A stretch of 64,000 nucleotides of DNA, from the NCBI GenBank assembly GCA_027923505.1, contig BROI01000002.1, positions 558,001-622,000 on the forward strand, given 5' to 3'. Made by a program: the position numbers and the translations under genes. Position 1 is the first letter of the stretch, and every line of letters begins with the position of its first letter. The DNA comes from Mayamaea pseudoterrestris. Lineage: Eukaryota > Bacillariophyta > Bacillariophyceae > Sellaphorales > Sellaphoraceae. Positions 35,453-58,564 of the stretch are shown piece by piece. The notes beneath the pieces are model-generated. The model was not told the origin of the DNA, did no database searches, and worked only from the letters and a program-made list of their open reading frames with translations.

Positions 35453-35889
35453 GGTGTATTTGCTTGCTTGTTGTAATGGTCTTGTTGGTGGTTTGCAGTT
35501 TGCAGCTCCTCGAAGTGGAAGGCCCACGCGATAACGACGAAATAACGGTCAATCGCTTTCTAGCGATGATCATGACGTCATCTACAATGACGTCAATCCG
35601 GTACTGTGCGTCGCAGCGAAACTAATGAGTACTCTTCGGGTCATAGGTTTTAAAAAAATGCACGAAAAGTTCGATTCGATTCTTGCGAACGACCATGGCA
35701 AAAGCATTGGCCTTGCCTTGCGCACCTTTCTTTGTCTCGCTACGTATTAGGAGTCGCAACGCGACGTGCCAAAGTTGAACTCCCCATTCGTGTGTCTACT
35801 TAGTATCAGCAAATCTCGCTCACCTTGGCACCTCGCTCAGCTACACACATCACCCGCACGACGCCTCGTCTACACGAGTTGTGCCGACA
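35453..35889. other. Divergent region V-ATPase G / kinase containing duplication edge
   Basis: 437 bases between divergent starts. The left boundary of the 11,381-bp duplication falls at 35528. The region contains two perfect TGACGTCA palindromes (annotated separately). Confidence 0.6.
35573..35595. promoter_or_regulatory. Paired TGACGTCA (CRE-type) elements, copy 1
   Basis: Two perfect TGACGTCA palindromes at 35573-35580 and 35588-35595, 15 bases apart start to start. This is the bZIP CRE core; in diatoms related TGACGT elements act as CO2/cAMP-responsive elements of carbonic anhydrase promoters. Here they lie between V-ATPase G and the kinase-like gene, so either or both could be targets. 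Confidence 0.55.
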
Positions 35890-37533
35890 ATGATTCATCC
35901 AAAGCGGACAAATTTGTCCACCGACGACAAGTCATCCGACCAAGAAGAGCCGAACCATCAAATTCAGAATAGATCCGCTTCGCCCAGGATCCAAAGACGT
36001 TCCATTTATAGCATGATGGTCGGACGTCGTCGCGTTCCTGACAAGAAGATGAATTGTTGCACCAAGCCTCGCAAATGGACACTGTCATCCATTCTTGTAT
36101 TGATGTTGGTTGTGGCATCAATCAGCACACTCTTAATCAATTCAGTATCAGTATTGATATTTTCGAAACAGATTATTGGCAATGACGCTCATCTACCGCT
36201 ATCTATGGAAACAGTACGTCGACGAAAGGTGCATAACATTGCTTACAAAACCACTGCACAAAGCTCGCGAATGGTTTACTTGGAATCGTCGTTGCAATTT
36301 TATGAAGCCAAACAAGGTCGATTCATTGCCACCATGTTTCCTGTGGAACCAGTCGCCAACATGACCAACTCATCCAACTTTTTGAATGTATCCGACGCAA
36401 TCGATTTTGAACTGAACATGACTGCTCCCGACACAATCTTGTCAAGGGACGAAGTGACAGCCGACAACACACAAGACCAATTTAGCTACTTGGATCGCTG
36501 CCTGCCAAAAGCTGACTGGCAGACCGCTAGCTTTATCAATTGCAACGCCTTTCACGAATTAAACATGGCGCACTCGTCACTGGAGAATCGTCGACGCGGC
36601 GAGGAGGAGCAACTATCAGTGCTTGGTGAAGGATGGTTTCGCACCGCCTGGCGACTGTATGCGCGCAACCAAACGACCGTGCTGAAAACGTTGCGGATCG
36701 AACGAGATTTTTTGCCAGAATACTATGAGTTGCATCGTAGAGATGCAGTTGCCATGGAGCGATTGACGTGGTCGCCCTTTGTCGTTAACGTGTTTGGCTA
36801 CTGTGGCAACTCGGCAATCAACGAGATTGCGGATTTTCCCTATCGCGATGTGAACGATTTGGAGCACTTTGATCGAAAGATGAGGTACCGCGAGCGTCAT
36901 CCGCAGATTCAACGCATCAAGCTGCAATTGGCGGCAAGCATTGCGCAAGGCGTGGCTGACATTCATTCCATCGATGGGCCAGAAGTGGGTGTCAGCATGG
37001 TGCACTACGACTTGAATCCACGCAACATTGCAATCTTTGCGCAGGGACGCCCAAAGATCAACGATTTTAATATTGCAGAGTTTCTACGCTATGATCCTGT
37101 CAATAATCGCACTTGTGGGTTTCCCAATCGCATGCGGCAGCCATGGTGGAGAGCCCCGGAGGAAGTCAATCTAACAGCCAACGTGGAGGTGAATGAAAAG
37201 ACTGACATTTATTCACTTGGTGCTATTCTGTTTCATATTTTAACTACGCATTCTCCCCGCGGCAAAATGAAAAAGGAAATGATGGAGGATGTTCGGGCTG
37301 ATGTGGTCCGAGGAGTTGCTCCAGTCTTGCCGCCGCCCTTTGACAACATGACGGATTCAGTGACAATGGCGTTCAAGAAGGCCATGGACCGATGCTTCGT
37401 GGTAGACCACAAGGAGCGCGCCACGGCCGATGAGATTGTTGACATTTTGTTTCAGGCGCTCATGAAGGTTTTGGGTGACGGTAGCAAGAAGTCAAAACGT
37501 CGATCAATTAAGCATACCGATCGCACGAGATAG
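35890..37533 (+). CDS. Membrane-anchored protein kinase-like protein, copy 1
   Basis: 547 residues from ATG 35890; the frame is open three codons upstream from a GTG that is not used. A basic N-terminus (about 1-62) precedes one membrane span (about 67-91), so the kinase-like domain is probably luminal or extracellular; six or more sequons (NMT, NSS, NVS, NQT, NLT) in that part support this. Kinase landmarks: TVLKTL (the usual Lys), HYDLNPRN (H372, D374, with Asn for the usual Lys of HRDLKPxN), NDFNIAEF (D392, DFN for DFG), WWRAPEEV and DIYSLGAILF. Main catalytic residues are present, so it may be active despite altered motifs. The stop lies 18 bases from the APH-like stop. Confidence 0.8.
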   Translation: MIHPKRTNLSTDDKSSDQEEPNHQIQNRSASPRIQRRSIYSMMVGRRRVPDKKMNCCTKPRKWTLSSILVLMLVVASISTLLINSVSVLIFSKQIIGNDAHLPLSMETVRRRKVHNIAYKTTAQSSRMVYLESSLQFYEAKQGRFIATMFPVEPVANMTNSSNFLNVSDAIDFELNMTAPDTILSRDEVTADNTQDQFSYLDRCLPKADWQTASFINCNAFHELNMAHSSLENRRRGEEEQLSVLGEGWFRTAWRLYARNQTTVLKTLRIERDFLPEYYELHRRDAVAMERLTWSPFVVNVFGYCGNSAINEIADFPYRDVNDLEHFDRKMRYRERHPQIQRIKLQLAASIAQGVADIHSIDGPEVGVSMVHYDLNPRNIAIFAQGRPKINDFNIAEFLRYDPVNNRTCGFPNRMRQPWWRAPEEVNLTANVEVNEKTDIYSLGAILFHILTTHSPRGKMKKEMMEDVRADVVRGVAPVLPPPFDNMTDSVTMAFKKAMDRCFVVDHKERATADEIVDILFQALMKVLGDGSKKSKRRSIKHTDRTR

Positions 37534-37551
37534 CTGCTAAAACACCGCAGC

Positions 37552-38952
37552 TTACTCTTGAACATGGTGACTGCTGGTCTCACCGAGACGGCAGACTTCG
37601 CGCTCAATCTTTTGAACAAGCTCAGGCTTGGTTTCCCACGGCGACCGACTGTGATTCGACTCGTCCATACACTGCAGTAAAAGTACCGTCAAGCTATGAA
37701 TAGTCTCCAGACGCAGCCAGGGATCAATGCTACCGAGATTGACTTGCATTTGCTGCGAGTATGTTCGCCAAATGATGTCTGCCTGTGTTCGATTTGCGCA
37801 CACCTTTCGACCAAGCATTAGTAGTTCAAAGCGCGGGTCGGCAATGGCTGCTTCCTCCCAATCGAGAACGGATGCGACGATTGACTTCAAATTATTGCAT
37901 CCGTTGATTATAATTTTGCTGAATAGAATGTTTTGTGGCTGGCAATCCATGTGCACCAACGTTGGCGCCAGGGATTCTATCGAGGAACTATCGGTTGTGA
38001 GTTCCATTATGCTTCGATCCAGCTTCATTAATGCGTTTACTAATGTAACATCTGCACATTGACAAGTCTGTAGTTGCTTTAGCGCTTGCTTGTGTAGAAG
38101 CAGCATTGTTTGAAATGTATATATCGGCGGATATACATCCTCCGCGCCTCTGGGTCGTCTGTGAGGATTGTCGTTTTGAAGCCAGTCAATAGGCCTCTTC
38201 CTAAAGTAGCAATGTAATGGAATCACCACTTGATGCAATACAGTCAGTGCATAGTCTAACGCTTGATCAGCAGGAACCCGTCCCCATCGTGGATGTGTTT
38301 CATCAAATCCAAACTCTCTGCGGATGAACACCATGGATTCGCACCATGCATCGTCAAATGATTCGTCTTGAAACAATAGTGACTCCTTGCCAACATACTC
38401 AACCATCGCCCATGGGTGGCATGCATCGTTATCAAGTGATTCGTGTAGAATGTGAGGAATGTAGGGACGTCGCTGAGTATCCTTGCCATCGTTGAGTGCC
38501 AGTCGAGCGAGTCGGTATCCCATCAGTTCGTCTCGTGCAATTGCCTTCAGGTCGCTGCTGCCGCCGTTCCGATTCAAGTTCCACCATCGCGCAGATCCCT
38601 TCCAAATTCGGACAACAATTCTATTTTTACCTCTTTGCAATGCTTGCTTCCAGTCGCCATTGTCGCTCGACAATGCAATTGACTGCGGCAGCTGTAGAAT
38701 GAGCACCGTCTGCTGAGCCGATTTGGCCGTTTCAACGGAAATGAGTGGCTCTAGAAGCGACAGTTTCTTTTGAAGAAACGTTAGAGCCGATGAAGAGAGC
38801 TGGTCCATCTTTGTATACTTCTGCAGCCGGCCATGCATCAATGGTGCGCGATGGCAATAATGGACGATGAAAAACATCCGATGTCTCACCGGTGAAGTTG
38901 AGAACCAGTACGACGCTTCCACACGACTGCACGAAAGTCCGTTTCTGCGCAT
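37552..38952 (-). CDS. APH/choline-kinase-fold phosphotransferase, copy 1
   Basis: 466 residues from ATG 38952; Met49 at 38808 is an alternative start and the first 48 residues show no known domain. The APH-fold core has LVHMDCQPQNILF (near residue 334; HxDxxxxN catalytic loop) and VLDWEEAAIADPRFEL (metal-binding Asp), the two hallmarks of the aminoglycoside phosphotransferase/choline-kinase family. The N-lobe includes RIVVRIWKG and a W-rich segment. The substrate is not clear: small molecules such as choline, ethanolamine or fructosamine are possible. The one base differing between copies changes residue 131 or so from Asn here to His in copy 2. Confidence 0.75.
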   Translation of the reverse strand: MRRNGLSCSRVEASYWFSTSPVRHRMFFIVHYCHRAPLMHGRLQKYTKMDQLSSSALTFLQKKLSLLEPLISVETAKSAQQTVLILQLPQSIALSSDNGDWKQALQRGKNRIVVRIWKGSARWWNLNRNGGSSDLKAIARDELMGYRLARLALNDGKDTQRRPYIPHILHESLDNDACHPWAMVEYVGKESLLFQDESFDDAWCESMVFIRREFGFDETHPRWGRVPADQALDYALTVLHQVVIPLHCYFRKRPIDWLQNDNPHRRPRGAEDVYPPIYTFQTMLLLHKQALKQLQTCQCADVTLVNALMKLDRSIMELTTDSSSIESLAPTLVHMDCQPQNILFSKIIINGCNNLKSIVASVLDWEEAAIADPRFELLMLGRKVCANRTQADIIWRTYSQQMQVNLGSIDPWLRLETIHSLTVLLLQCMDESNHSRSPWETKPELVQKIEREVCRLGETSSHHVQE

Positions 38953-39186
38953 GAGCGATGGATTCCGTAACTAAAATACGAGCGATCTAATGCATCAAAG
39001 CTAGACACAAAACATGATCGCCCTATAGAAACGGTGCAAGTGGGATCGCTCAACGCTCGCCACGATTCCATGCTCCGAAACGTTTCGTTATCGATGGGGC
39101 GGCTCACAAATCGCGGTTGCCTGCCGATCCACTCACACACATCTCCACGCTGCGCGCTCCAAGACACACACACACACTAACATACC

Positions 39187-39618
39187 ATGAAGTTTGACAC
39201 CAAGACGCTCAAGCCCATGCCTGTCTCTCCGGAACACTGCTTCGTCCGTCCGAACAAGTTTGTTCCGCCAGTCGATCATGAAACCAAGGACGACGACGGC
39301 GACCAGGGCCGCCAGGTTTACTACGAGGCAACCATTGTCTACACGCCCGTCTACGCTTCGACTCGCATTCACCAGGATCAAGTCAGCAGTGGTCGCAAGA
39401 AGCTTTTGGAGGATTTGGACATGGAGAGTCTCAACCAAAAGCTGGAAGGCTTGTTTATTGGCGGCGGCGACGACGACAAGGAGGCAGGCGTCGTCAAGAA
39501 AAGGGAATCAAAGAAGGACAATGTCAAGACGGAAATGACCAAGAAGGAGGGACTCGGTCGATCCGCCAAGGCGGGACATGACAAGACGGCGATGCGCAGT
39601 CGACGCGCACTCAAGTGA
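39187..39618 (+). CDS. Small conserved-looking protein, copy 1
   Basis: 143 residues from ATG 39187 with an N-terminal globular part (FVRPNKFVPPVDHETKDD, then QVYYEATIVYTPVYASTRIH) and a Lys-rich tail (KKRESKKDN, MRSRRALK) with an internal DDDKE acidic patch. No family recognised. Codon use and the coherent frame make it a credible gene. It lies on the same strand as, and 247 bases upstream of, the EDRF1-like start. Confidence 0.6.
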   Translation: MKFDTKTLKPMPVSPEHCFVRPNKFVPPVDHETKDDDGDQGRQVYYEATIVYTPVYASTRIHQDQVSSGRKKLLEDLDMESLNQKLEGLFIGGGDDDKEAGVVKKRESKKDNVKTEMTKKEGLGRSAKAGHDKTAMRSRRALK

Positions 39619-39865
39619 ATGATGTGAATGGATTCGGAAGGACGAAAATGAGGATTTATAGATGGTAGAACAAAAAGAGGCGGTACGACTCAGTAAGAAA
39701 TCGACAATTGTAACTACTCTGTGCGTATAGCTCTAGTTCGTCTGCATGATTAGTAGCAGTTGACTTGGAGATTGTCGGATAGCATTGGAGCTTCCCTCCT
39801 CACGACCAACGAGCGAACCACGTCTCGCGCGTCATAGCGCGCGCCGCGGCGCGCCACCAAAGAAC

Positions 39866-42800
39866 ATGAGCAAGACCGAGCAACGTCGCCCTACTTGCTT
39901 TCACAAAGTGCTGTCCTCCTCCCGTACTCCTTTCATAGAACTCTCCAGCATGAGCTCCTCCTTGTCTTCTGTAGACAAGCATTCATTGTCAGTCAACGAT
40001 GACGACACGACTGCAAAGGCATCCGCTCCTTTGGACCAGCCGCTCAGCGCTTCTTCATCGCAGCAACCATCATCGACGGATCATTATCATTTAGATTTCA
40101 TCGCCAGCAGCCATGCCGTCAAAAGCTTGTTCTCCTTGGGAGTCATTGACGATCAAAGCATTAGCGTTGCCATTCACAACGTTGATGGAGCGCTCGTATT
40201 GGATCACGCGCATGTTGCCGCGGAAGGAGCCGTCGTTGAAGCAGCAGCAGCTCAAGGAATTAGCGACAGCAGCAGTCACGAAAATACTCGTTTGGGAGCC
40301 TTGGAGGCAGACAAGGAGCGACAAGTATCATTGTCGCAGGATATCATTGCTCTTCCTGCTGGACTGGGCGAGATGAAGGAGACGGAAGCGCTCGCGCTGA
40401 TTCTTGCGAATCCGCCGCAGAATTCCGTCTCAAACATCACCTCGCATGACAGTCATAGCGACAACAATTCCAAGCTCGGACTACCCGTACCTGACGATTA
40501 TATACAACGATTCTTGCCGCAGCAATCTCCCGAACCACGAGAATATTTGCCTTGGAAATTCAAGGACATTCAGTTGCTCATTGGCTCGAATGCGACCGTC
40601 TATCGAGCAAGCAGCAGCAGCACTACTGCGAATGCAGCTAACGTAGCGGAGCATTCGACAGCCATTACAGTTCGCATTGAACAAACGAGAGACCTGCAGT
40701 CTCTCTTGGAGCGATATGAACAAGACAAGCTGTTTGCGCTGCAAAACAAGCCTTCATATGCACAAGTGGCCGCAGCAAAGGCAATCAGACAGCGACAACA
40801 AATAAACAAGCCGCTCACCAGCGATTTGCATCAACTGGCCGACGATGAGCAAGGTCTTCAGTCTTGTATTGTGGCAGCTCCATCTTGTCCTGTAGGTGGA
40901 CTATTGTCGTCTCGAGGCGGCCTCATTTCATCGCCGCAGCACCACCAAGCGGACGCATCAACAAATCCTGCTTCGTCGCCAACTTCGCCCGTTTCCACCG
41001 TTTTGGACATTTATCTTGATAATATAATGGCTAATGTACCGCAGCTGGCATTGTGTTTACAGGACAAGGGTTTGATTCAGTCGGTGAAGCTGCTGTCGAC
41101 GGATGACATTCCATCGTCGCTGATGCATCCCGATACTCTCGAAACATCGACTCCATTTTCAATTGTTCACAAGGCCGACGGAAAGCAAGTTTTTAGCCCC
41201 GAAGTCATGGAGACGAATGCATCCATGTTGCTTCGATTCCTGCAAGCCAACTGCACCAAGAATAACACGACATATCTGCTACGACGGGAGCATGGCGAAA
41301 CAAACATTCAACTATACGATATATCCACCCTTTCCGGTCGAGGACAAAAGCGCTGGGTGTTTTGGCTCGCCATGATGTCTTATCGCTTTGCCAATCGTTT
41401 GCGCCACGTTGCCATGAACCACGCCGTCGACGATCCGGCCTTGAAGCGAGCTTGGCGTGCGCGGCAGCGAAGTTTGTTGCGAAACACGTTGGAGTTGCTG
41501 GAAAAGTTGACGGATATGGATGGTAATCAGCGCGAGAGTTTGGCAGCTGCGGTTCATGAGCATTTGGCGGATAGCATGCTGGGTCTGGAGGATAGTGAAG
41601 GGCCTGCTGGTTGCTTTGGTGAGGGCGACGAGGAAGCGCTTCCCTCGTCAGGCAAATCCGTACCTACATCGCCGACACCTTGTGTATCCATGATACAGCA
41701 GCCGTACGCTAACATCTCGGTTGATGCTTTGGGCAAGGCTCAGGATCATTTGGCGAAGGGCATCAAGGTACTTATGCCGGTTTTGGAAGCTGATGCGAAA
41801 CTGCATAACGCTAAGACTAAGAAGGGAGCTGTAGATGCAGAATTTCGCCGGCGTATTGAACCAGTCGCGACTCAGCTCTTTGCCTTGCACTACAAGTTTG
41901 TGAATGTGTCGCTTCGTCTTGCTGAAATTCATTTAAGTAATTACTTTTCGTCGAGCGCCATGCAGGCTTTGCGGACTTCCGCTCGGTGCATGGCAGATTC
42001 ACTATATCTGGTCCATCTTTTAGATCGAGACTCGGACAAGAGAGTATATGCCTGGATGCAAAGAATTCAGCTCCAGTATACATGGCTGTGGGAACACAGC
42101 GGCCACTTCGCGCGATCATTTGCAGCGGACGAACTATGGCGAGAGCGTGGCCATGCTTCTGGCGACGATGTAATCAGTGTACTTCAGGATGTTGACAATG
42201 CATTTCGCGAGCATGCATCACTAGATTTGAGCGATTCATTTATACGGAAGACTTTTATCGAGCCGGAGAATCCGCTTACAATGCAGTCGAATGGCGTCAT
42301 TAATCTTAATTCGTTAAATGGTATTGTCGACTTCTTTGCACCAATTGGGAAGCGGAAGGTTCAAAAAACACAACGCAACGCCTCCGACAGAGAAGTTGCT
42401 GAAAAAGTCTTGGCGAAGCGGAGGGTTATTGTCCGCGATCAAAGAAAAGTTTTGATCGCTGCATCCCTTGCTTACAGTCGATCAATCAAATCGTTTCGCG
42501 ATTTACTAGCAGAGGAAGCGTTTGACGACACACTCCCATCAGAGAATGATACCGCGTTGATAGCTTTGCTCGATCAGAGGCTTGGTGATTCTTGCAATGA
42601 GACTGGGAAGATTCTGTTGAATGAACTTAGACGACTCCTTCAGTCAGCGAGTGCTCGCCCCAACGATGCTGCGCCTACAGGAGCCGTCGAGTACATGCTC
42701 TCGTCCGCTCAGTTTTGGTTTTTCCAAGCCCTTGAAGTATTCGAACGTTGCAGAGATCTACGAAACTTGGCGTTGCTTCGTTGCAACCTCTGTCAGGCGT

Positions 42801-43732
42801 ACAAGCTTCAGGCTAATGCAGTTTTTTCGTCCACGACCCCGAAACCCCCGGACGGCCACACCCATGCTGATATCTGCTTGCAGGAGGCCATCCATCACCT
42901 TGAAGCTGCTCATGAGGCCCTGGGCGAGCGTGACCTGGATCCGAAAACATGGAACTTTGTCAGCGAGGAGATGGCTGCAACGTTTCTGGTACTTGGGGTT
43001 CGACGGCGCCAATCCTTTATTGGATCTGGATCGGTGCCTGTCCTTATGCAGGCTTTACGACTTTCTCCGGGAAAGGAGCAGTCGATTGTTGAGCCAATAG
43101 AGAGAGCGCGACAAATCTATGAGCAGCTTGGGAACCATCATCAGGCTGCAGCAGCGCACTACCAGCTCGCGTTGTACTTTAGTAAAATATGGACCTGCCA
43201 ACTTAACGAGGTTAAGACGCGAGAAAAGCTCACGCTCGCGTTCCAGCATTTTAATGCTGCGTATGGGTACTTTTTAAAAGCAATTCGTGGGAATGAGATT
43301 ACATTTTGTTTGCTGTGCATCGACTCATCGGGATTGTACGCGGCCGTTCCAGGGCTAGAGAGCACTTGCAAGGCACTTCTACGTTGTCTAGACACTGCTG
43401 ATGCGCTTTCTAAAAACGTTGTAGAAACGAAATTGAAAGATGTGCAAGGCCGTGCCGACTGGTTTAGGCAAATGGATGTAATTACCACGGCTATTGACGA
43501 ACGCGTATTCAAAGCGTTGCGCAGTTTGGTGAAAATTGAAAATGAAGCTGCTGGTGACGGTAACGATCGGTACAAGTCATTGTATCGAATAGCCTTGCAA
43601 GCCAAAATGCGCCCCGCTCCTTCTGAAGTTTACTGCGGGGACGAATTTATTGACAGTGTTGCTAACCGACTCCACGCAATGCACTCCCTGCTCAAGGAAA
43701 CTGCTACTCATTACAAAGAAAAATGCGTTTGA
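39866..43732 (+). CDS. EDRF1-like TPR protein, copy 1
   Basis: 1,288 residues from ATG 39866 (MSKTEQRRP); the frame opens 27 codons earlier at a TTG, which is not a eukaryotic start. The N-terminal third is Ser/Gln-rich, with YLPWKFKDIQLLIGSNATVY, then VLDIYLDNIMANVPQLALCL and LRFLQANCTKNNTTYLLRR, an order of blocks seen in erythroid differentiation-related factor 1 (EDRF1, KIAA-type) proteins. The C-terminal half is helical with TPR-like repeats and a predicted scaffold role. Human EDRF1 affects GATA1-dependent transcription; outside animals the role is unknown, so the name is by sequence only. Confidence 0.78.
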   Translation: MSKTEQRRPTCFHKVLSSSRTPFIELSSMSSSLSSVDKHSLSVNDDDTTAKASAPLDQPLSASSSQQPSSTDHYHLDFIASSHAVKSLFSLGVIDDQSISVAIHNVDGALVLDHAHVAAEGAVVEAAAAQGISDSSSHENTRLGALEADKERQVSLSQDIIALPAGLGEMKETEALALILANPPQNSVSNITSHDSHSDNNSKLGLPVPDDYIQRFLPQQSPEPREYLPWKFKDIQLLIGSNATVYRASSSSTTANAANVAEHSTAITVRIEQTRDLQSLLERYEQDKLFALQNKPSYAQVAAAKAIRQRQQINKPLTSDLHQLADDEQGLQSCIVAAPSCPVGGLLSSRGGLISSPQHHQADASTNPASSPTSPVSTVLDIYLDNIMANVPQLALCLQDKGLIQSVKLLSTDDIPSSLMHPDTLETSTPFSIVHKADGKQVFSPEVMETNASMLLRFLQANCTKNNTTYLLRREHGETNIQLYDISTLSGRGQKRWVFWLAMMSYRFANRLRHVAMNHAVDDPALKRAWRARQRSLLRNTLELLEKLTDMDGNQRESLAAAVHEHLADSMLGLEDSEGPAGCFGEGDEEALPSSGKSVPTSPTPCVSMIQQPYANISVDALGKAQDHLAKGIKVLMPVLEADAKLHNAKTKKGAVDAEFRRRIEPVATQLFALHYKFVNVSLRLAEIHLSNYFSSSAMQALRTSARCMADSLYLVHLLDRDSDKRVYAWMQRIQLQYTWLWEHSGHFARSFAADELWRERGHASGDDVISVLQDVDNAFREHASLDLSDSFIRKTFIEPENPLTMQSNGVINLNSLNGIVDFFAPIGKRKVQKTQRNASDREVAEKVLAKRRVIVRDQRKVLIAASLAYSRSIKSFRDLLAEEAFDDTLPSENDTALIALLDQRLGDSCNETGKILLNELRRLLQSASARPNDAAPTGAVEYMLSSAQFWFFQALEVFERCRDLRNLALLRCNLCQAYKLQANAVFSSTTPKPPDGHTHADICLQEAIHHLEAAHEALGERDLDPKTWNFVSEEMAATFLVLGVRRRQSFIGSGSVPVLMQALRLSPGKEQSIVEPIERARQIYEQLGNHHQAAAAHYQLALYFSKIWTCQLNEVKTREKLTLAFQHFNAAYGYFLKAIRGNEITFCLLCIDSSGLYAAVPGLESTCKALLRCLDTADALSKNVVETKLKDVQGRADWFRQMDVITTAIDERVFKALRSLVKIENEAAGDGNDRYKSLYRIALQAKMRPAPSEVYCGDEFIDSVANRLHAMHSLLKETATHYKEKCV

Positions 43733-43766
43733 AAATTGTGATAATTTAATATTTCATTTACTTGTG

Positions 43767-45279
43767 TCACTCCTCCGGAAACAAAGGTAGCCTGCTCTTT
43801 TCGATACCAGATTCGACAAAACCCTGCTCCTTGAGCATAGTGATAGTATCTCGCAGTCGCATTCCTTCATCATGATTCATTCGTTGTAGCGACACTGTAA
43901 TATGACTAGCCAATGCCTTCAAAATTTGAACATCATTGTTCGTAAAACCACCCTGCGTCTTGGAAATTGGATCAACGGCATCAAGATTACCCTTGCGCTT
44001 ATCCGTCTTGTTGATTGCTTGAATGACGGCAATCGCTCGACCTTGTGAATCCAATACTGGCACGCACACCATGTTGCGAATCTGCTGGTCATGCGGAAGC
44101 GACTCGTTTTGCTTGCCGGCTTCTGCCGCAAAGTCTGGTTCGTTTCGTACGTCATAAAAGTTAAAGCACTCGCCTGTCAATACCGCGCGCGACGCAATGT
44201 TGCGGCCAAGTGGTATAAAGCTTCCAGACTTGAGCGACTTTTTGGATGTTTCGTCGTACTTGGCGTATAAATACTTTCCATCTGGCGTTGGAATGGGAGT
44301 GCCCAGCTTGTCGTCCTTTTGCACGACGAGAAAGAGCGACGTCCGCTGCGCCCCAATCAAACTACCCGCCTCATTAATAACGTCGTTGAATATTTCATCC
44401 AAGTGTGCTTCTCGTTTCCGTGCTTGAATCTTGTTCGAGTCGATGAATAAAAGTGGAAACATGCCTATTAATGAATGAAAAGCCAGAGACAAGTAAGCTT
44501 GACGCTCGCAAAAATAGAAAACAGACTACACCATAACATTTGTACGTTACCAATCAAACAGCCAATGGTCATTCCAATGGCGCAACCAAACTGGTTGGCA
44601 AACCTCACCGACCGCAGCTGTCGCTGGGCCGTGGTGAGATTGGGCTTTGGAAGGTTCACGTGCTTGGCCAAAAAGTCTTCCACGACGGTTCCAAACATGA
44701 CTCCGGCAACGTCACTGACAATGTTTCCCTGGAGCATCAATAATAGATAAATATTGTTGAGTAAACCTGTTTCATTCCGTCCACATTCTCGTCACTCATT
44801 ATACGCACCAGCGCTGCCGCGCACATTGTCGAAATGCCCAGCAGTACACCAAAGGACGTGTCAATGGCATCACCCGCAATGATCAACAAGGCATTATCCA
44901 TGATTCCAAAGGCAATAAAGGGAATGCACGTGGCAATGGCAACCGCTCTCAAGTCTTGCTTGGTTGGTTCAGGAATTATTAATTGTGCGTCATTGCCTGA
45001 TTTGGAGGCTGCTTCGCGTACGTGGCGAATGGCACCATGTAGCTGCTGGCGGCCTGACGGTGACAAGTGATTGACTAGTGATTCGAAACCAAGTCCTTGC
45101 TCGCTAAGTTCAGTCAATTGTCGCGATAGATTGGAAGCATTGACTGGTTTATTGCTCGATGAGGCTGCTGCTTCTGCTGCATCGGACAGTGAGCGAGTGC
45201 TTGGCTTACAGTGTAACCTTTGCGTCACTGAAATTATTGGTCGACATATTTTCTGCGACCGTATCATATTAATCTGCAT
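43767..45279 (-). CDS. TMEM65-GAF fusion protein, three exons, copy 1
   Basis: Exons 45279-44809, 44728-44551 and 44464-43767; introns of 80 and 86 nt, total 448 residues. Exon 1 gives a mitochondrial-like Arg/Ser presequence, then IPFIAFGIMDNALLIIAGDA and ISTMCAAAL; splicing at GTGCGT joins this to GNIVSDVAG, then IGMTIGCLIGMFPLLF, the TMEM65 (DUF2453) core. An alternative donor 42 bases downstream would leave a 38-nt intron and break the family match. Exon 3 continues from the last span into a GAF domain (LIGAQRTSLFLVV, NIASRAVLTGE, IRNMVCVPVLDSQGRAIAVI), ending in a short coil. Human TMEM65 acts in mitochondrial Na/Ca handling but has no GAF. The fusion suggests ligand- or redox-gated transport, which is inference. 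Confidence 0.85.
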
Positions 45280-45507
45280 TGGATTCTATATACCAGAGAT
45301 TAATGGGCCGCAGTAGCAGCAGGGGCAAAAGATTGGACGGACGAAAGGTATGATGGTGTCATGGTCGATTGAATGGATTGTCACGCATCGTAGCGGTACT
45401 CAGTCTTGTCTTGCGTTTGTTCTTTGGCAGTGTGCGTACGACATTCTCACATATCATCATCATTCCACAAAGTCTTCCGTACGACCTTAACAGAAATCAT
45501 CAACAGC

Positions 45508-46285
45508 ATGGGTTCCTTCATGTTTGCCCTTTACTGCATAGGGAGTTTTCTGCTCATGGTGATTTTGGCGTGTGTCATGTGCGGCTGTCCGATACTGGCG
45601 TTCGTACTCGGCGCACCTTTCGAACAAACCGTGAGTGTCAATGAACGACAACGGATGGAACAAAGTAATTTGGCCGAATGGATCATTCGTCTCATGCGAG
45701 ATCCAGATACTTTGGAGGATCGTCGTCGTCGTAGGCAGACGTCAACCACGGATGTTGAGCAACCGCAGTCTCTACAAGAAAAGACTGACGAGTACTCGAG
45801 TAAGACGCTGCAGCTGCTGGAATCTAGACGAATGGTACGTGACAAGACTTATAAGATTCATGTGTTTTGCGTATATGGAATCATCTGGGTTCAGAGGTCT
45901 GACATTGTTGCTTGTATATGCGCAGACACTACGAGAAAAACATTTCGTCCACTATCCCACGACGGAAGCCGTCACAGTCGAGGTGAGCTTCGGTGACGAC
46001 CCAGCGACCAGCAGCAACGACAGTACCATGGTTCGCGTTCCGGCTGCTGGCTCGCATGTAAATTGTGACAATGATCAACCATATCGACTGGCGGAGGCAA
46101 CCTGCGCCATATGCTTGATCGCCTACGAGACTGGCTCGCAGGTTGGTTGGTCATCCAACATCGCGTGTGAGCATGTCTTTCATTACGATTGCTTCAAATT
46201 GTGGTTGGCGCGGCCCGAAGGAAAGTCTTGTCCATGTTGCCGACGGGAGTTTCTTGTCGGCGAAACTGTTGATTTGAAAGGGTGA
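45508..46285 (+). CDS. RING-H2 membrane E3 ubiquitin ligase, two exons, copy 1
   Basis: Exons 45508-45834 and 45926-46285 with a 91-nt intron (donor GTACGT, acceptor CAG); 228 residues. The start at 45508 (MGSFMFALYCIG) opens a membrane segment (about 4-35), followed by a charged linker. The C-terminus is a RING-H2 finger: CAICL, then CEHVFHYDCFKLWLARPEGK and CPCCRREF, with the Cys/His spacing of ATL-type E3 ligases. It would ubiquitinate membrane or cytosolic substrates at an endomembrane. It is divergent from the TMEM65-GAF gene. Confidence 0.88.
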
Positions 46286-48914: not shown

Positions 48915-48932
48915 CTGCTAAAACACCGCAGC

Positions 48933-50333
48933 TTACTCTTGAACATGGTGACTGCTGGTCTCACCGAGACGGCAGACTTCGCGCTCAATCTTTTGAACAA
49001 GCTCAGGCTTGGTTTCCCACGGCGACCGACTGTGATTCGACTCGTCCATACACTGCAGTAAAAGTACCGTCAAGCTATGAATAGTCTCCAGACGCAGCCA
49101 GGGATCAATGCTACCGAGATTGACTTGCATTTGCTGCGAGTATGTTCGCCAAATGATGTCTGCCTGTGTTCGATTTGCGCACACCTTTCGACCAAGCATT
49201 AGTAGTTCAAAGCGCGGGTCGGCAATGGCTGCTTCCTCCCAATCGAGAACGGATGCGACGATTGACTTCAAATTATTGCATCCGTTGATTATAATTTTGC
49301 TGAATAGAATGTTTTGTGGCTGGCAATCCATGTGCACCAACGTTGGCGCCAGGGATTCTATCGAGGAACTATCGGTTGTGAGTTCCATTATGCTTCGATC
49401 CAGCTTCATTAATGCGTTTACTAATGTAACATCTGCACATTGACAAGTCTGTAGTTGCTTTAGCGCTTGCTTGTGTAGAAGCAGCATTGTTTGAAATGTA
49501 TATATCGGCGGATATACATCCTCCGCGCCTCTGGGTCGTCTGTGAGGATTGTCGTTTTGAAGCCAGTCAATAGGCCTCTTCCTAAAGTAGCAATGTAATG
49601 GAATCACCACTTGATGCAATACAGTCAGTGCATAGTCTAACGCTTGATCAGCAGGAACCCGTCCCCATCGTGGATGTGTTTCATCAAATCCAAACTCTCT
49701 GCGGATGAACACCATGGATTCGCACCATGCATCGTCAAATGATTCGTCTTGAAACAATAGTGACTCCTTGCCAACATACTCAACCATCGCCCATGGGTGG
49801 CATGCATCGTTATCAAGTGATTCGTGTAGAATGTGAGGAATGTAGGGACGTCGCTGAGTATCCTTGCCATCGTTGAGTGCCAGTCGAGCGAGTCGGTATC
49901 CCATCAGTTCGTCTCGTGCAATTGCCTTCAGGTCGCTGCTGCCGCCGTGCCGATTCAAGTTCCACCATCGCGCAGATCCCTTCCAAATTCGGACAACAAT
50001 TCTATTTTTACCTCTTTGCAATGCTTGCTTCCAGTCGCCATTGTCGCTCGACAATGCAATTGACTGCGGCAGCTGTAGAATGAGCACCGTCTGCTGAGCC
50101 GATTTGGCCGTTTCAACGGAAATGAGTGGCTCTAGAAGCGACAGTTTCTTTTGAAGAAACGTTAGAGCCGATGAAGAGAGCTGGTCCATCTTTGTATACT
50201 TCTGCAGCCGGCCATGCATCAATGGTGCGCGATGGCAATAATGGACGATGAAAAACATCCGATGTCTCACCGGTGAAGTTGAGAACCAGTACGACGCTTC
50301 CACACGACTGCACGAAAGTCCGTTTCTGCGCAT
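48933..50333 (-). CDS. APH/choline-kinase-fold phosphotransferase, copy 2
   Basis: Identical to the 37552-38952 gene except G at 49949 (T at 38568), read on the minus strand as a CAC His codon in place of AAC Asn within WNLNRxGGSSDL. The change is outside the HMDCQPQN and DW catalytic motifs. The alternative start lies at 50189. Confidence 0.72.
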   Translation of the reverse strand: MRRNGLSCSRVEASYWFSTSPVRHRMFFIVHYCHRAPLMHGRLQKYTKMDQLSSSALTFLQKKLSLLEPLISVETAKSAQQTVLILQLPQSIALSSDNGDWKQALQRGKNRIVVRIWKGSARWWNLNRHGGSSDLKAIARDELMGYRLARLALNDGKDTQRRPYIPHILHESLDNDACHPWAMVEYVGKESLLFQDESFDDAWCESMVFIRREFGFDETHPRWGRVPADQALDYALTVLHQVVIPLHCYFRKRPIDWLQNDNPHRRPRGAEDVYPPIYTFQTMLLLHKQALKQLQTCQCADVTLVNALMKLDRSIMELTTDSSSIESLAPTLVHMDCQPQNILFSKIIINGCNNLKSIVASVLDWEEAAIADPRFELLMLGRKVCANRTQADIIWRTYSQQMQVNLGSIDPWLRLETIHSLTVLLLQCMDESNHSRSPWETKPELVQKIEREVCRLGETSSHHVQE

Positions 50334-50567
50334 GAGCGATGGATTCCGTAACTAAAATACGAGCGATCTAATGCATCAAAGCTAGACACAAAACATGATC
50401 GCCCTATAGAAACGGTGCAAGTGGGATCGCTCAACGCTCGCCACGATTCCATGCTCCGAAACGTTTCGTTATCGATGGGGCGGCTCACAAATCGCGGTTG
50501 CCTGCCGATCCACTCACACACATCTCCACGCTGCGCGCTCCAAGACACACACACACACTAACATACC

Positions 50568-50999
50568 ATGAAGTTTGACACCAAGACGCTCAAGCCCATG
50601 CCTGTCTCTCCGGAACACTGCTTCGTCCGTCCGAACAAGTTTGTTCCGCCAGTCGATCATGAAACCAAGGACGACGACGGCGACCAGGGCCGCCAGGTTT
50701 ACTACGAGGCAACCATTGTCTACACGCCCGTCTACGCTTCGACTCGCATTCACCAGGATCAAGTCAGCAGTGGTCGCAAGAAGCTTTTGGAGGATTTGGA
50801 CATGGAGAGTCTCAACCAAAAGCTGGAAGGCTTGTTTATTGGCGGCGGCGACGACGACAAGGAGGCAGGCGTCGTCAAGAAAAGGGAATCAAAGAAGGAC
50901 AATGTCAAGACGGAAATGACCAAGAAGGAGGGACTCGGTCGATCCGCCAAGGCGGGACATGACAAGACGGCGATGCGCAGTCGACGCGCACTCAAGTGA
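50568..50999 (+). CDS. Small conserved-looking protein, copy 2
   Basis: Identical to the 39187-39618 product: 143 residues, globular N-terminus, Lys-rich tail, no recognised family. Confidence 0.55.
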   Translation: MKFDTKTLKPMPVSPEHCFVRPNKFVPPVDHETKDDDGDQGRQVYYEATIVYTPVYASTRIHQDQVSSGRKKLLEDLDMESLNQKLEGLFIGGGDDDKEAGVVKKRESKKDNVKTEMTKKEGLGRSAKAGHDKTAMRSRRALK

Positions 51000-51246
51000 A
51001 TGATGTGAATGGATTCGGAAGGACGAAAATGAGGATTTATAGATGGTAGAACAAAAAGAGGCGGTACGACTCAGTAAGAAATCGACAATTGTAACTACTC
51101 TGTGCGTATAGCTCTAGTTCGTCTGCATGATTAGTAGCAGTTGACTTGGAGATTGTCGGATAGCATTGGAGCTTCCCTCCTCACGACCAACGAGCGAACC
51201 ACGTCTCGCGCGTCATAGCGCGCGCCGCGGCGCGCCACCAAAGAAC

Positions 51247-54200
51247 ATGAGCAAGACCGAGCAACGTCGCCCTACTTGCTTTCACAAAGTGCTGTCCTCC
51301 TCCCGTACTCCTTTCATAGAACTCTCCAGCATGAGCTCCTCCTTGTCTTCTGTAGACAAGCATTCATTGTCAGTCAACGATGACGACACGACTGCAAAGG
51401 CATCCGCTCCTTTGGACCAGCCGCTCAGCGCTTCTTCATCGCAGCAACCATCATCGACGGATCATTATCATTTAGATTTCATCGCCAGCAGCCATGCCGT
51501 CAAAAGCTTGTTCTCCTTGGGAGTCATTGACGATCAAAGCATTAGCGTTGCCATTCACAACGTTGATGGAGCGCTCGTATTGGATCACGCGCATGTTGCC
51601 GCGGAAGGAGCCGTCGTTGAAGCAGCAGCAGCTCAAGGAATTAGCGACAGCAGCAGTCACGAAAATACTCGTTTGGGAGCCTTGGAGGCAGACAAGGAGC
51701 GACAAGTATCATTGTCGCAGGATATCATTGCTCTTCCTGCTGGACTGGGCGAGATGAAGGAGACGGAAGCGCTCGCGCTGATTCTTGCGAATCCGCCGCA
51801 GAATTCCGTCTCAAACATCACCTCGCATGACAGTCATAGCGACAACAATTCCAAGCTCGGACTACCCGTACCTGACGATTATATACAACGATTCTTGCCG
51901 CAGCAATCTCCCGAACCACGAGAATATTTGCCTTGGAAATTCAAGGACATTCAGTTGCTCATTGGCTCGAATGCGACCGTCTATCGAGCAAGCAGCAGCA
52001 GCACTACTGCGAATGCAGCTAACGTAGCGGAGCATTCGACAGCCATTACAGTTCGCATTGAACAAACGAGAGACCTGCAGTCTCTCTTGGAGCGATATGA
52101 ACAAGACAAGCTGTTTGCGCTGCAAAACAAGCCTTCATATGCACAAGTGGCCGCAGCAAAGGCAATCAGACAGCGACAACAAATAAACAAGCCGCTCACC
52201 AGCGATTTGCATCAACTGGCCGACGATGAGCAAGGTCTTCAGTCTTGTATTGTGGCAGCTCCATCTTGTCCTGTAGGTGGACTATTGTCGTCTCGAGGCG
52301 GCCTCATTTCATCGCCGCAGCACCACCAAGCGGACGCATCAACAAATCCTGCTTCGTCGCCAACTTCGCCCGTTTCCACCGTTTTGGACATTTATCTTGA
52401 TAATATAATGGCTAATGTACCGCAGCTGGCATTGTGTTTACAGGACAAGGGTTTGATTCAGTCGGTGAAGCTGCTGTCGACGGATGACATTCCATCGTCG
52501 CTGATGCATCCCGATACTCTCGAAACATCGACTCCATTTTCAATTGTTCACAAGGCCGACGGAAAGCAAGTTTTTAGCCCCGAAGTCATGGAGACGAATG
52601 CATCCATGTTGCTTCGATTCCTGCAAGCCAACTGCACCAAGAATAACACGACATATCTGCTACGACGGGAGCATGGCGAAACAAACATTCAACTATACGA
52701 TATATCCACCCTTTCCGGTCGAGGACAAAAGCGCTGGGTGTTTTGGCTCGCCATGATGTCTTATCGCTTTGCCAATCGTTTGCGCCACGTTGCCATGAAC
52801 CACGCCGTCGACGATCCGGCCTTGAAGCGAGCTTGGCGTGCGCGGCAGCGAAGTTTGTTGCGAAACACGTTGGAGTTGCTGGAAAAGTTGACGGATATGG
52901 ATGGTAATCAGCGCGAGAGTTTGGCAGCTGCGGTTCATGAGCATTTGGCGGATAGCATGCTGGGTCTGGAGGATAGTGAAGGGCCTGCTGGTTGCTTTGG
53001 TGAGGGCGACGAGGAAGCGCTTCCCTCGTCAGGCAAATCCGTACCTACATCGCCGACACCTTGTGTATCCATGATACAGCAGCCGTACGCTAACATCTCG
53101 GTTGATGCTTTGGGCAAGGCTCAGGATCATTTGGCGAAGGGCATCAAGGTACTTATGCCGGTTTTGGAAGCTGATGCGAAACTGCATAACGCTAAGACTA
53201 AGAAGGGAGCTGTAGATGCAGAATTTCGCCGGCGTATTGAACCAGTCGCGACTCAGCTCTTTGCCTTGCACTACAAGTTTGTGAATGTGTCGCTTCGTCT
53301 TGCTGAAATTCATTTAAGTAATTACTTTTCGTCGAGCGCCATGCAGGCTTTGCGGACTTCCGCTCGGTGCATGGCAGATTCACTATATCTGGTCCATCTT
53401 TTAGATCGAGACTCGGACAAGAGAGTATATGCCTGGATGCAAAGAATTCAGCTCCAGTATACATGGCTGTGGGAACACAGCGGCCACTTCGCGCGATCAT
53501 TTGCAGCGGACGAACTATGGCGAGAGCGTGGCCATGCTTCTGGCGACGATGTAATCAGTGTACTTCAGGATGTTGACAATGCATTTCGCGAGCATGCATC
53601 ACTAGATTTGAGCGATTCATTTATACGGAAGACTTTTATCGAGCCGGAGAATCCGCTTACAATGCAGTCGAATGGCGTCATTAATCTTAATTCGTTAAAT
53701 GGTATTGTCGACTTCTTTGCACCAATTGGGAAGCGGAAGGTTCAAAAAACACAACGCAACGCCTCCGACAGAGAAGTTGCTGAAAAAGTCTTGGCGAAGC
53801 GGAGGGTTATTGTCCGCGATCAAAGAAAAGTTTTGATCGCTGCATCCCTTGCTTACAGTCGATCAATCAAATCGTTTCGCGATTTACTAGCAGAGGAAGC
53901 GTTTGACGACACACTCCCATCAGAGAATGATACCGCGTTGATAGCTTTGCTCGATCAGAGGCTTGGTGATTCTTGCAATGAGACTGGGAAGATTCTGTTG
54001 AATGAACTTAGACGACTCCTTCAGTCAGCGAGTGCTCGCCCCAACGATGCTGCGCCTACAGGAGCCGTCGAGTACATGCTCTCGTCCGCTCAGTTTTGGT
54101 TTTTCCAAGCCCTTGAAGTATTCGAACGTTGCAGAGATCTACGAAACTTGGCGTTGCTTCGTTGCAACCTCTGTCAGGCGTACAAGCTTCAGGCTAATGC

Positions 54201-55113
54201 AGTTTTTTCGTCCACGACCCCGAAACCCCCGGACGGCCACACCCATGCTGATATCTGCTTGCAGGAGGCCATCCATCACCTTGAAGCTGCTCATGAGGCC
54301 CTGGGCGAGCGTGACCTGGATCCGAAAACATGGAACTTTGTCAGCGAGGAGATGGCTGCAACGTTTCTGGTACTTGGGGTTCGACGGCGCCAATCCTTTA
54401 TTGGATCTGGATCGGTGCCTGTCCTTATGCAGGCTTTACGACTTTCTCCGGGAAAGGAGCAGTCGATTGTTGAGCCAATAGAGAGAGCGCGACAAATCTA
54501 TGAGCAGCTTGGGAACCATCATCAGGCTGCAGCAGCGCACTACCAGCTCGCGTTGTACTTTAGTAAAATATGGACCTGCCAACTTAACGAGGTTAAGACG
54601 CGAGAAAAGCTCACGCTCGCGTTCCAGCATTTTAATGCTGCGTATGGGTACTTTTTAAAAGCAATTCGTGGGAATGAGATTACATTTTGTTTGCTGTGCA
54701 TCGACTCATCGGGATTGTACGCGGCCGTTCCAGGGCTAGAGAGCACTTGCAAGGCACTTCTACGTTGTCTAGACACTGCTGATGCGCTTTCTAAAAACGT
54801 TGTAGAAACGAAATTGAAAGATGTGCAAGGCCGTGCCGACTGGTTTAGGCAAATGGATGTAATTACCACGGCTATTGACGAACGCGTATTCAAAGCGTTG
54901 CGCAGTTTGGTGAAAATTGAAAATGAAGCTGCTGGTGACGGTAACGATCGGTACAAGTCATTGTATCGAATAGCCTTGCAAGCCAAAATGCGCCCCGCTC
55001 CTTCTGAAGTTTACTGCGGGGACGAATTTATTGACAGTGTTGCTAACCGACTCCACGCAATGCACTCCCTGCTCAAGGAAACTGCTACTCATTACAAAGA
55101 AAAATGCGTTTGA
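51247..55113 (+). CDS. EDRF1-like TPR protein, copy 2
   Basis: Identical to the 39866-43732 product (1,288 residues); true ATG at 51247, the earlier frame opening being a TTG. Confidence 0.73.
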   Translation: MSKTEQRRPTCFHKVLSSSRTPFIELSSMSSSLSSVDKHSLSVNDDDTTAKASAPLDQPLSASSSQQPSSTDHYHLDFIASSHAVKSLFSLGVIDDQSISVAIHNVDGALVLDHAHVAAEGAVVEAAAAQGISDSSSHENTRLGALEADKERQVSLSQDIIALPAGLGEMKETEALALILANPPQNSVSNITSHDSHSDNNSKLGLPVPDDYIQRFLPQQSPEPREYLPWKFKDIQLLIGSNATVYRASSSSTTANAANVAEHSTAITVRIEQTRDLQSLLERYEQDKLFALQNKPSYAQVAAAKAIRQRQQINKPLTSDLHQLADDEQGLQSCIVAAPSCPVGGLLSSRGGLISSPQHHQADASTNPASSPTSPVSTVLDIYLDNIMANVPQLALCLQDKGLIQSVKLLSTDDIPSSLMHPDTLETSTPFSIVHKADGKQVFSPEVMETNASMLLRFLQANCTKNNTTYLLRREHGETNIQLYDISTLSGRGQKRWVFWLAMMSYRFANRLRHVAMNHAVDDPALKRAWRARQRSLLRNTLELLEKLTDMDGNQRESLAAAVHEHLADSMLGLEDSEGPAGCFGEGDEEALPSSGKSVPTSPTPCVSMIQQPYANISVDALGKAQDHLAKGIKVLMPVLEADAKLHNAKTKKGAVDAEFRRRIEPVATQLFALHYKFVNVSLRLAEIHLSNYFSSSAMQALRTSARCMADSLYLVHLLDRDSDKRVYAWMQRIQLQYTWLWEHSGHFARSFAADELWRERGHASGDDVISVLQDVDNAFREHASLDLSDSFIRKTFIEPENPLTMQSNGVINLNSLNGIVDFFAPIGKRKVQKTQRNASDREVAEKVLAKRRVIVRDQRKVLIAASLAYSRSIKSFRDLLAEEAFDDTLPSENDTALIALLDQRLGDSCNETGKILLNELRRLLQSASARPNDAAPTGAVEYMLSSAQFWFFQALEVFERCRDLRNLALLRCNLCQAYKLQANAVFSSTTPKPPDGHTHADICLQEAIHHLEAAHEALGERDLDPKTWNFVSEEMAATFLVLGVRRRQSFIGSGSVPVLMQALRLSPGKEQSIVEPIERARQIYEQLGNHHQAAAAHYQLALYFSKIWTCQLNEVKTREKLTLAFQHFNAAYGYFLKAIRGNEITFCLLCIDSSGLYAAVPGLESTCKALLRCLDTADALSKNVVETKLKDVQGRADWFRQMDVITTAIDERVFKALRSLVKIENEAAGDGNDRYKSLYRIALQAKMRPAPSEVYCGDEFIDSVANRLHAMHSLLKETATHYKEKCV

Positions 55114-55147
55114 AAATTGTGATAATTTAATATTTCATTTACTTGTG

Positions 55148-56660
55148 TCACTCCTCCGGAAACAAAGGTAGCCTGCTCTTTTCGATACCAGATTCGACAA
55201 AACCCTGCTCCTTGAGCATAGTGATAGTATCTCGCAGTCGCATTCCTTCATCATGATTCATTCGTTGTAGCGACACTGTAATATGACTAGCCAATGCCTT
55301 CAAAATTTGAACATCATTGTTCGTAAAACCACCCTGCGTCTTGGAAATTGGATCAACGGCATCAAGATTACCCTTGCGCTTATCCGTCTTGTTGATTGCT
55401 TGAATGACGGCAATCGCTCGACCTTGTGAATCCAATACTGGCACGCACACCATGTTGCGAATCTGCTGGTCATGCGGAAGCGACTCGTTTTGCTTGCCGG
55501 CTTCTGCCGCAAAGTCTGGTTCGTTTCGTACGTCATAAAAGTTAAAGCACTCGCCTGTCAATACCGCGCGCGACGCAATGTTGCGGCCAAGTGGTATAAA
55601 GCTTCCAGACTTGAGCGACTTTTTGGATGTTTCGTCGTACTTGGCGTATAAATACTTTCCATCTGGCGTTGGAATGGGAGTGCCCAGCTTGTCGTCCTTT
55701 TGCACGACGAGAAAGAGCGACGTCCGCTGCGCCCCAATCAAACTACCCGCCTCATTAATAACGTCGTTGAATATTTCATCCAAGTGTGCTTCTCGTTTCC
55801 GTGCTTGAATCTTGTTCGAGTCGATGAATAAAAGTGGAAACATGCCTATTAATGAATGAAAAGCCAGAGACAAGTAAGCTTGACGCTCGCAAAAATAGAA
55901 AACAGACTACACCATAACATTTGTACGTTACCAATCAAACAGCCAATGGTCATTCCAATGGCGCAACCAAACTGGTTGGCAAACCTCACCGACCGCAGCT
56001 GTCGCTGGGCCGTGGTGAGATTGGGCTTTGGAAGGTTCACGTGCTTGGCCAAAAAGTCTTCCACGACGGTTCCAAACATGACTCCGGCAACGTCACTGAC
56101 AATGTTTCCCTGGAGCATCAATAATAGATAAATATTGTTGAGTAAACCTGTTTCATTCCGTCCACATTCTCGTCACTCATTATACGCACCAGCGCTGCCG
56201 CGCACATTGTCGAAATGCCCAGCAGTACACCAAAGGACGTGTCAATGGCATCACCCGCAATGATCAACAAGGCATTATCCATGATTCCAAAGGCAATAAA
56301 GGGAATGCACGTGGCAATGGCAACCGCTCTCAAGTCTTGCTTGGTTGGTTCAGGAATTATTAATTGTGCGTCATTGCCTGATTTGGAGGCTGCTTCGCGT
56401 ACGTGGCGAATGGCACCATGTAGCTGCTGGCGGCCTGACGGTGACAAGTGATTGACTAGTGATTCGAAACCAAGTCCTTGCTCGCTAAGTTCAGTCAATT
56501 GTCGCGATAGATTGGAAGCATTGACTGGTTTATTGCTCGATGAGGCTGCTGCTTCTGCTGCATCGGACAGTGAGCGAGTGCTTGGCTTACAGTGTAACCT
56601 TTGCGTCACTGAAATTATTGGTCGACATATTTTCTGCGACCGTATCATATTAATCTGCAT
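55148..56660 (-). CDS. TMEM65-GAF fusion protein, copy 2
   Basis: Exons 56660-56190, 56109-55932 and 55845-55148, identical to copy 1 including splice signals; 448 residues. Confidence 0.8.
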
Positions 56661-56888
56661 TGGATTCTATATACCAGAGATTAATGGGCCGCAGTAGCAG
56701 CAGGGGCAAAAGATTGGACGGACGAAAGGTATGATGGTGTCATGGTCGATTGAATGGATTGTCACGCATCGTAGCGGTACTCAGTCTTGTCTTGCGTTTG
56801 TTCTTTGGCAGTGTGCGTACGACATTCTCACATATCATCATCATTCCACAAAGTCTTCCGTACGACCTTAACAGAAATCATCAACAGC

Positions 56889-57666
56889 ATGGGTTCCTTC
56901 ATGTTTGCCCTTTACTGCATAGGGAGTTTTCTGCTCATGGTGATTTTGGCGTGTGTCATGTGCGGCTGTCCGATACTGGCGTTCGTACTCGGCGCACCTT
57001 TCGAACAAACCGTGAGTGTCAATGAACGACAACGGATGGAACAAAGTAATTTGGCCGAATGGATCATTCGTCTCATGCGAGATCCAGATACTTTGGAGGA
57101 TCGTCGTCGTCGTAGGCAGACGTCAACCACGGATGTTGAGCAACCGCAGTCTCTACAAGAAAAGACTGACGAGTACTCGAGTAAGACGCTGCAGCTGCTG
57201 GAATCTAGACGAATGGTACGTGACAAGACTTATAAGATTCATGTGTTTTGCGTATATGGAATCATCTGGGTTCAGAGGTCTGACATTGTTGCTTGTATAT
57301 GCGCAGACACTACGAGAAAAACATTTCGTCCACTATCCCACGACGGAAGCCGTCACAGTCGAGGTGAGCTTCGGTGACGACCCAGCGACCAGCAGCAACG
57401 ACAGTACCATGGTTCGCGTTCCGGCTGCTGGCTCGCATGTAAATTGTGACAATGATCAACCATATCGACTGGCGGAGGCAACCTGCGCCATATGCTTGAT
57501 CGCCTACGAGACTGGCTCGCAGGTTGGTTGGTCATCCAACATCGCGTGTGAGCATGTCTTTCATTACGATTGCTTCAAATTGTGGTTGGCGCGGCCCGAA
57601 GGAAAGTCTTGTCCATGTTGCCGACGGGAGTTTCTTGTCGGCGAAACTGTTGATTTGAAAGGGTGA
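56889..57666 (+). CDS. RING-H2 membrane E3 ubiquitin ligase, copy 2
   Basis: Exons 56889-57215 and 57307-57666, identical to copy 1. This is the last recognisable gene in the window; 623 bases of copy 2 tail separate it from the satellite. Confidence 0.83.
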
Positions 57667-58289
57667 AAGTCAAAAGGAAGACCTTTTTGGCCACTGCCAA
57701 TCTTTGTCACACCAATGGTGACCAAGGCACGTAGCGAAAGTGATGCAGGCAGAAGCAAGCTTGATATTTGGATGGCTGTACTCTCTATGAAAAAACATTC
57801 AACTGCAGCCAAACGTGCTAGAAAAACTGCTTGGAAACGAGGCCAAAAGACCGCCTGTCGGCAAGTTTAAGAGCATGAGCTAGGAGTCTGTAGCAAGTCA
57901 CACTTGAAAGCGCATGTTCCAATAGTCTGTAGCAAGTCGCTACCATGCTTCCAGATGAAACGCGACATTCATGGGGGACTCGGAACGGCTCATTCATGGC
58001 CCGAGAAAGGCGACAGCATCTCGATCTTAATTGTCCCCCAAACAATCGTTTTATTTATTAAAATATGTATGTCACTACAACGAAGTGATTAAAGACCTTA
58101 TCTTTTTTTCGCTAGGGTCTATTAAACACATGAACATATTCGCAGGGTGGGGAGGTGGTATCGGTAGGATCAATGGTACCACAAAGCCTGCAAACAAACA
58201 CCTCCAGTAGACAATATAGAAATTGACACAGGCCCTTCAAAGCAAACCATTTTGATGGGTTGATGCCAACGATTCTCGTCTATACGGAA
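57667..58289. other. Gene-free tail of copy 2 before the satellite
   Basis: Identical to 46286-46908. Contains the AGTCTGTAGCAAGTC direct repeat and an AT-rich patch (TTTATTTATTAAAATATG near 58050). No gene seen. Confidence 0.6.
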
Positions 58290-58564
58290 CAAGACTATGC
58301 CATAGACATGCGCATAGTCTCAAATGGTGCAGAAAGGACTGCCTGGAGGCCCACACCATGGAATCTATACAGTGCCAAGACCCCAAGTTGTGGATGCATA
58401 CCACCAGGATGCCCCATGCCCTAGCCACTCACAACGACCCAATGAGTGTCAGGCAAAACTATCCAGAGTGTGCCATTGGCATGTGCATAGTCTCCAATGG
58501 TGCAAAAAGGACTGCCTGGAGGTCTACACCCTGGAATATTCTACACAACAGGTCATGGAAAGAC
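58290..58564. repeat. Diverged ~173-bp direct repeat at the array edge
   Basis: CATAGTCTCAAATGGTGC at about 58313 recurs as CATAGTCTCCAATGGTGC at about 58486, each followed by GGACTGCCTGGAGG and a CCTGGAAT/CATGGAAT block. The two are diverged from each other and distinct from most of the 347-bp unit; from about 58565 the sequence matches the main satellite. Confidence 0.6.

Follow-up and report, generated by a model that had tools for sequence, protein, structure and literature searches.

Head-to-tail amplicons at human 20q11.21 have been described in cultured stem cells, with one end in the pericentromeric (GGAAT)n repeat, and fork collapse has been proposed for them (PMC8165465). The locus described here, in the small freshwater diatom Mayamaea pseudoterrestris (Sellaphorales), resembles that system in having head-to-tail copies of a gene segment with one breakpoint at or in repeat DNA, but differs from it in that microhomology is described as flanking or overlapping the 20q11.21 breakpoints (PMC8165465), whereas the M. 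pseudoterrestris joint has none. Among the diatom papers listed (titles and abstract starts) for mitotic recombination, or for tandem or segmental duplication in connection with satellites, no such case appeared. The human 20q11.21 amplicon is reportedly far longer than the 11.4 kb found here. A different kind of likeness is to false duplications of the heterotype and homotype classes, in which near-identical copies likewise stand next to each other on a single contig; as described in PMC9516828, a gap typically separates such copies and depth is abnormal, whereas the M. pseudoterrestris copies abut without a gap.

We analysed a 64,000-nucleotide window, C2:558001-622000, where C2 is contig BROI01000002.1 of the M. 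pseudoterrestris assembly GCA_027923505.1 (11,017 genes; PMC12159174), which comprises 30.6 Mb in 41 contigs; coordinates are window positions unless a contig is named. An earlier note had described a near-perfect 11,381-bp tandem duplication at a constant offset without indels, with T38568/G49949 as the sole difference and with copies that abut without spacer or notable microhomology, and base-by-base comparison bears out each of these points. At an offset of +11,381, copies A and B (Table 1) are alike over 11,381 bp with one mismatch and no indels, and the lone mismatch lies between exact runs at 35528-38567 and 38569-46908. The two copies are thus direct, adjacent and 99.991% identical, as in a recent tandem segmental duplication. 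They share 11,332 25-mer pairs at this offset, and chance is not an issue as a source of the match. All letters of the window are A, C, G or T, with no N gap between the copies. Before the breakpoints, the left flank reads CCCAC and the unit end CGGAA; after them, the unit start reads GCGAT and the right flank CAAGA, and microhomology at the joint 46908|46909 is 0 bp on either side. Genome searches with EDRF1 and TMEM65 showed no third copy of the unit. No Rfam match reached the gathering score, and ARAGORN (bacterial code) reported no tRNA. We judge it likely that the locus holds a genuine, very recent tandem duplication in which a six-gene nuclear segment was repeated head to tail, via a break at a satellite edge.

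Table 1. Coordinates of genes, repeat copies, breakpoint features and satellite sequence in the window.
Feature	Position	Strand	Copy B counterpart	Basis
V-ATPase subunit G gene, left flank	34899..35452	-		Pfam V-ATPase_G match at 34899-35210; start codon assigned by eye
Copy A of 11,381-bp unit	35528..46908	none		base-by-base comparison
Protein kinase gene	35890..37533	+	+11381	ORF, Pfam
APH-family phosphotransferase gene	37552..38808	-	+11381	ORF, Pfam, homologues
Only difference, T in copy A, Asn to His in APH-family kinase	38568	-	G49949	
143-aa protein	39187..39618	+	+11381	ORF; no Pfam match
EDRF1-like TPR protein gene	39866..43732	+	+11381	
TMEM65-GAF fused gene with introns	43767..45279	-	+11381	
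RING-finger protein gene, start not fixed	45635..46285	+	+11381	
Two pieces like right edge of satellite block (L047 8071-8380), direct	46414..46740	+	57795-58121	
First half (157 bp) of dispersed element, ending at right end of unit	46752..46908	+	58133-58289	
Novel joint CGGAA/GCGAT, no microhomology	46904..46913	none		base comparison
Copy B of 11,381-bp unit, 1 mismatch to copy A	46909..58289	none		base-by-base comparison
Outermost 181-bp-type satellite copies, left edge of block; possible hairpin 58292-58320	58290..58560	+		
347-bp satellite array; block runs on to ~C2:640060	58561..60501	+		
347-bp satellite array, continued	61565..64000	+		

The same open frames recur at +11381 with one missense change, and the genes are complete in both copies, with the start of the RING-finger gene not fixed. 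Because the unit keeps 362 bp 5' of the kinase start and 623 bp 3' of the RING stop, all six genes look complete in either copy, and their dose should have doubled as an immediate effect. Genome search found two full-length open copies of EDRF1, both in this duplication, and none elsewhere in the genome. The count of six genes in the earlier note proved right, since the GAF and TMEM65 reading frames belong to one spliced gene, as in the deposited protein MPSEU_000131700, a TMEM65-GAF fusion whose first-intron splicing differs from that of the model made here. Both domains are present in the 120 listed of 303 homologues, as given by the precomputed Pfam column. The fused protein also occurs in other diatoms and in Triparma strigata among the homologues listed. 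The locus tags MPSEU_000130800 (APH) and MPSEU_000131700 (TMEM65-GAF) differ by nine steps of 100; three genes further on within the unit plus six for the next copy account for nine steps, and the second tag therefore fits copy B, provided that each copy has six genes. These two tags suggest that the annotation as deposited has six genes in each copy. The deposited APH model omits a short internal stretch as an intron.

The substituted codon in the APH-family gene is residue 135 of the open frame and, by hand count, residue 81 of the deposited protein MPSEU_000130800, which has Asn, the residue of copy A. At the aligned site in the 120 listed of 148 proteins, Asn occurs in 60, His in 7 and other residues in 51, with 2 gaps, and the position is, as judged from this alignment, not strictly conserved. 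When the diatom's own protein is left out, Asn is found in 59/119 of the listed homologues and His in 7. Because Asn is commoner than His among homologues, copy B looks derived and is probably the changed copy. The mutation rate given for Phaeodactylum tricornutum is 4.77e-10 per site per generation (PMC6604790); on the assumption that this borrowed rate applies, one difference is equivalent to ~92,000 cell divisions (95% range 2,300-513,000).

The left breakpoint lies 75 bp upstream of the V-ATPase G start codon, in the interval from which the V-ATPase G and kinase genes diverge; the V-ATPase G gene itself is not duplicated, and only its upstream region is part of the duplication. At the other end, the unit stops within a dispersed element whose full length is ~340-380 bp. 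We aligned 17 copies of this element from 13 loci; in the portion of the alignment compared, the other copies carry on as element sequence past the point at which the window switches to satellite. For 13/13 fetched loci, the alignment between element and window that reaches furthest stops at 58289-58293, and satellite alignments start at 58292-58298, with likeness by eye possibly from 58290. Thus, the break sits at the edge where element likeness stops and satellite begins, and the right end of the unit is within 0-3 bp of the element/satellite junction. The earlier placement of the right breakpoint exactly where satellite-related sequence begins needs correction in that repeat-related sequence is already found inside the unit, both in the half element and in the two pieces just upstream of it. 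These pieces resemble the far edge of the satellite block at 78% (46414-46477) and 67% (46552-46740); the likeness scores 81 bits (67% over 211 columns, plus the 78% piece of 64 columns), compared to 26.8 bits for the best of 50 shuffles. A genome search with 46480-46760 listed only copies A and B, and the same search missed the diverged far edge of the block. The dispersed element family has 40 listed matches in at least 28 places; its copies are in tandem at C25:82323-83944 and apparently paired at some others. Insertion of the satellite array into a dispersed element was considered as an origin of the junction and is unsupported: no second half of the element was found beyond the satellite in C2:548001-652000.

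The satellite block spans approximately C2:616290-640060 (~24 kb); copies of the 181-bp type form its two outer ends, and the 347-bp and 183-bp types lie in its interior. Its two outer edges share related, diverged sequence in direct orientation. Because these edge repeats are diverged (67-78%), the block looks to have been long in place at this site, while the duplication looks young. A hairpin at 58292-58320 in the first satellite copy is matched or exceeded in stability by ~2.6% of 3,403 40-mers sampled from 46909 onward; it is only moderately stable, and a role at the break is suggestive at most. At the 14 other array edges that we fetched, neither the block-edge repeat nor the dispersed element found a match (0/14), and a general signature of array edges is rejected for the edges examined.

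Several further features of this satellite DNA were observed. The block on C2 is a composite of three satellite types (~181, 183 and 347 bp). Its 347-bp array carries a ~1.06-kb insertion (60500-61565) with 24-nt terminal inverted repeats that are 92% complementary and an apparent 3-4 bp target duplication (by eye), which looks like a non-autonomous DNA transposon. The same block holds a second young tandem duplication of ~1.59 kb at 99.56% identity (C2:625876-629058; L046 3876-5470 and 5464-7058). Contigs C9, C11 and C30 begin with relatives of the 181-bp type, including a 352-bp double unit on C9, and the satellites of C2, C9, C11 and C30 are possibly centromeric or subtelomeric.

We propose that a replication fork or chromosome end may have broken where the ~24-kb satellite block begins on its left. 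The free end would then have been joined, without homology, to a site on the sister chromatid 11.4 kb upstream, in the interval separating V-ATPase G from the kinase gene, and the segment would thereby have been copied or retained twice. Satellite borders are plausible as fork-stalling sites. With 0 bp shared at the joint, the microhomology expected of microhomology-mediated break-induced replication is missing; this absence speaks for end joining over microhomology-mediated template switching, with the limit that one joint cannot decide between them. Recombination between homologous repeats at both unit ends (NAHR) was rejected: no bases match directly at the ends, and neither the terminal element nor the first satellite copies found a match near the left end in C2:548001-652000. 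Because such end repeats were not found, recombination between repeats is unlikely as a simple cause.

The doubling might instead have been made by the assembler, by laying the same allele (homotype) or two near-identical haplotypes (heterotype) end to end at the satellite block and closing the gap later, which we consider rather unlikely, though by no means negligible. Published assemblies are known to contain false duplications of both types (PMC9516828), the coincidence of the unit's right end with a repeat edge could equally come from a misassembly, and near identity is expected if both copies represent one allele. The assembly does break in such DNA, since contigs C9, C11 and C30 start in satellite. 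Gaps, however, are described as a primary characteristic of false duplications (PMC9516828), and none separates these copies. The joint also offers no overlap from which an assembler could build. A zero-overlap joint is not expected from overlap assembly unless a read or a gap-filling step spans it, and two near-identical 11-kb copies are usually collapsed by assemblers rather than multiplied. Against stacked haplotypes, the other possibility that the earlier note had left beside a recent duplication, stands the count of differences. Heterozygosity is 0.9% in another diatom, P. tricornutum (PMC6604790), and this value, which may not equal that of M. pseudoterrestris, predicts ~102 differences, compared to the one observed; a probability of at least 0.05 for one difference or fewer requires heterozygosity below ~0.04%. 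Taken together, one difference rather than ~102, the absence of a gap and the lack of overlap at the joint favour a duplication over stacked haplotypes. That the one change looks derived in copy B, and that the two locus tags fit six genes in each copy, also speak for a real duplication.

A real duplication could also have arisen by other routes. Excision of the segment as an extrachromosomal circle, followed by reinsertion through homologous recombination at its own locus, would leave an identical final sequence with one non-homologous joint; this route takes two events instead of one and nothing specific points to a circle, and we regard it as very improbable. Tandem copies can be homogenised, and an older duplication might thus have been held identical by gene conversion, but identity reaches both copy ends and divergence does not rise there, which leaves this the most remote of the explanations that we weighed. 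A single break might have made both junctions, if it fell inside the dispersed element and, after replication, one sister end was joined upstream while the other captured the satellite block and was thereby healed. Such a break would account for the duplication stopping only 0-3 bp from the element/satellite junction. The diverged direct repeat shared by the block edges argues against it, as this likeness suggests a block long in place, and we give a single break a low probability, below that of an assembly artefact and above that of a circle. If it were true, satellite edges in M. pseudoterrestris would be a source of new gene copies.

Self-comparison of 37 stretches (216,589 bases) revealed no other direct repeats of at least 400 bp at 97% identity or more outside satellite DNA. 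These stretches include the 14 other array edges, of 2.1 kb each, and all but the window are at most 10 kb, too short for a doubled 11-kb unit. With no second young duplication of this kind in the 37 stretches, the proposed break at a satellite edge gains no added support from them. C3 carries a second TMEM65 gene at a distance of ~8 kb from a satellite array, and a satellite-linked segmental duplication there was rejected: in the 15 kb fetched, only TMEM65 matched of nine protein pieces tried, at 25-42% identity, and it looks like an old paralogue.

The duplication that we favour belongs to an ordinary class of events and has an informative breakpoint. If it is false, the public assembly counts six genes twice. 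If it is real, it has been caught almost at birth: the dose of six genes is doubled, one copy of one gene has already acquired a changed residue, and the joint at the satellite edge is clean and non-homologous. The locus would then also offer a direct test of whether breakage at satellite borders gives rise to gene duplications in diatoms, and of whether only the cultured strain has the duplication.
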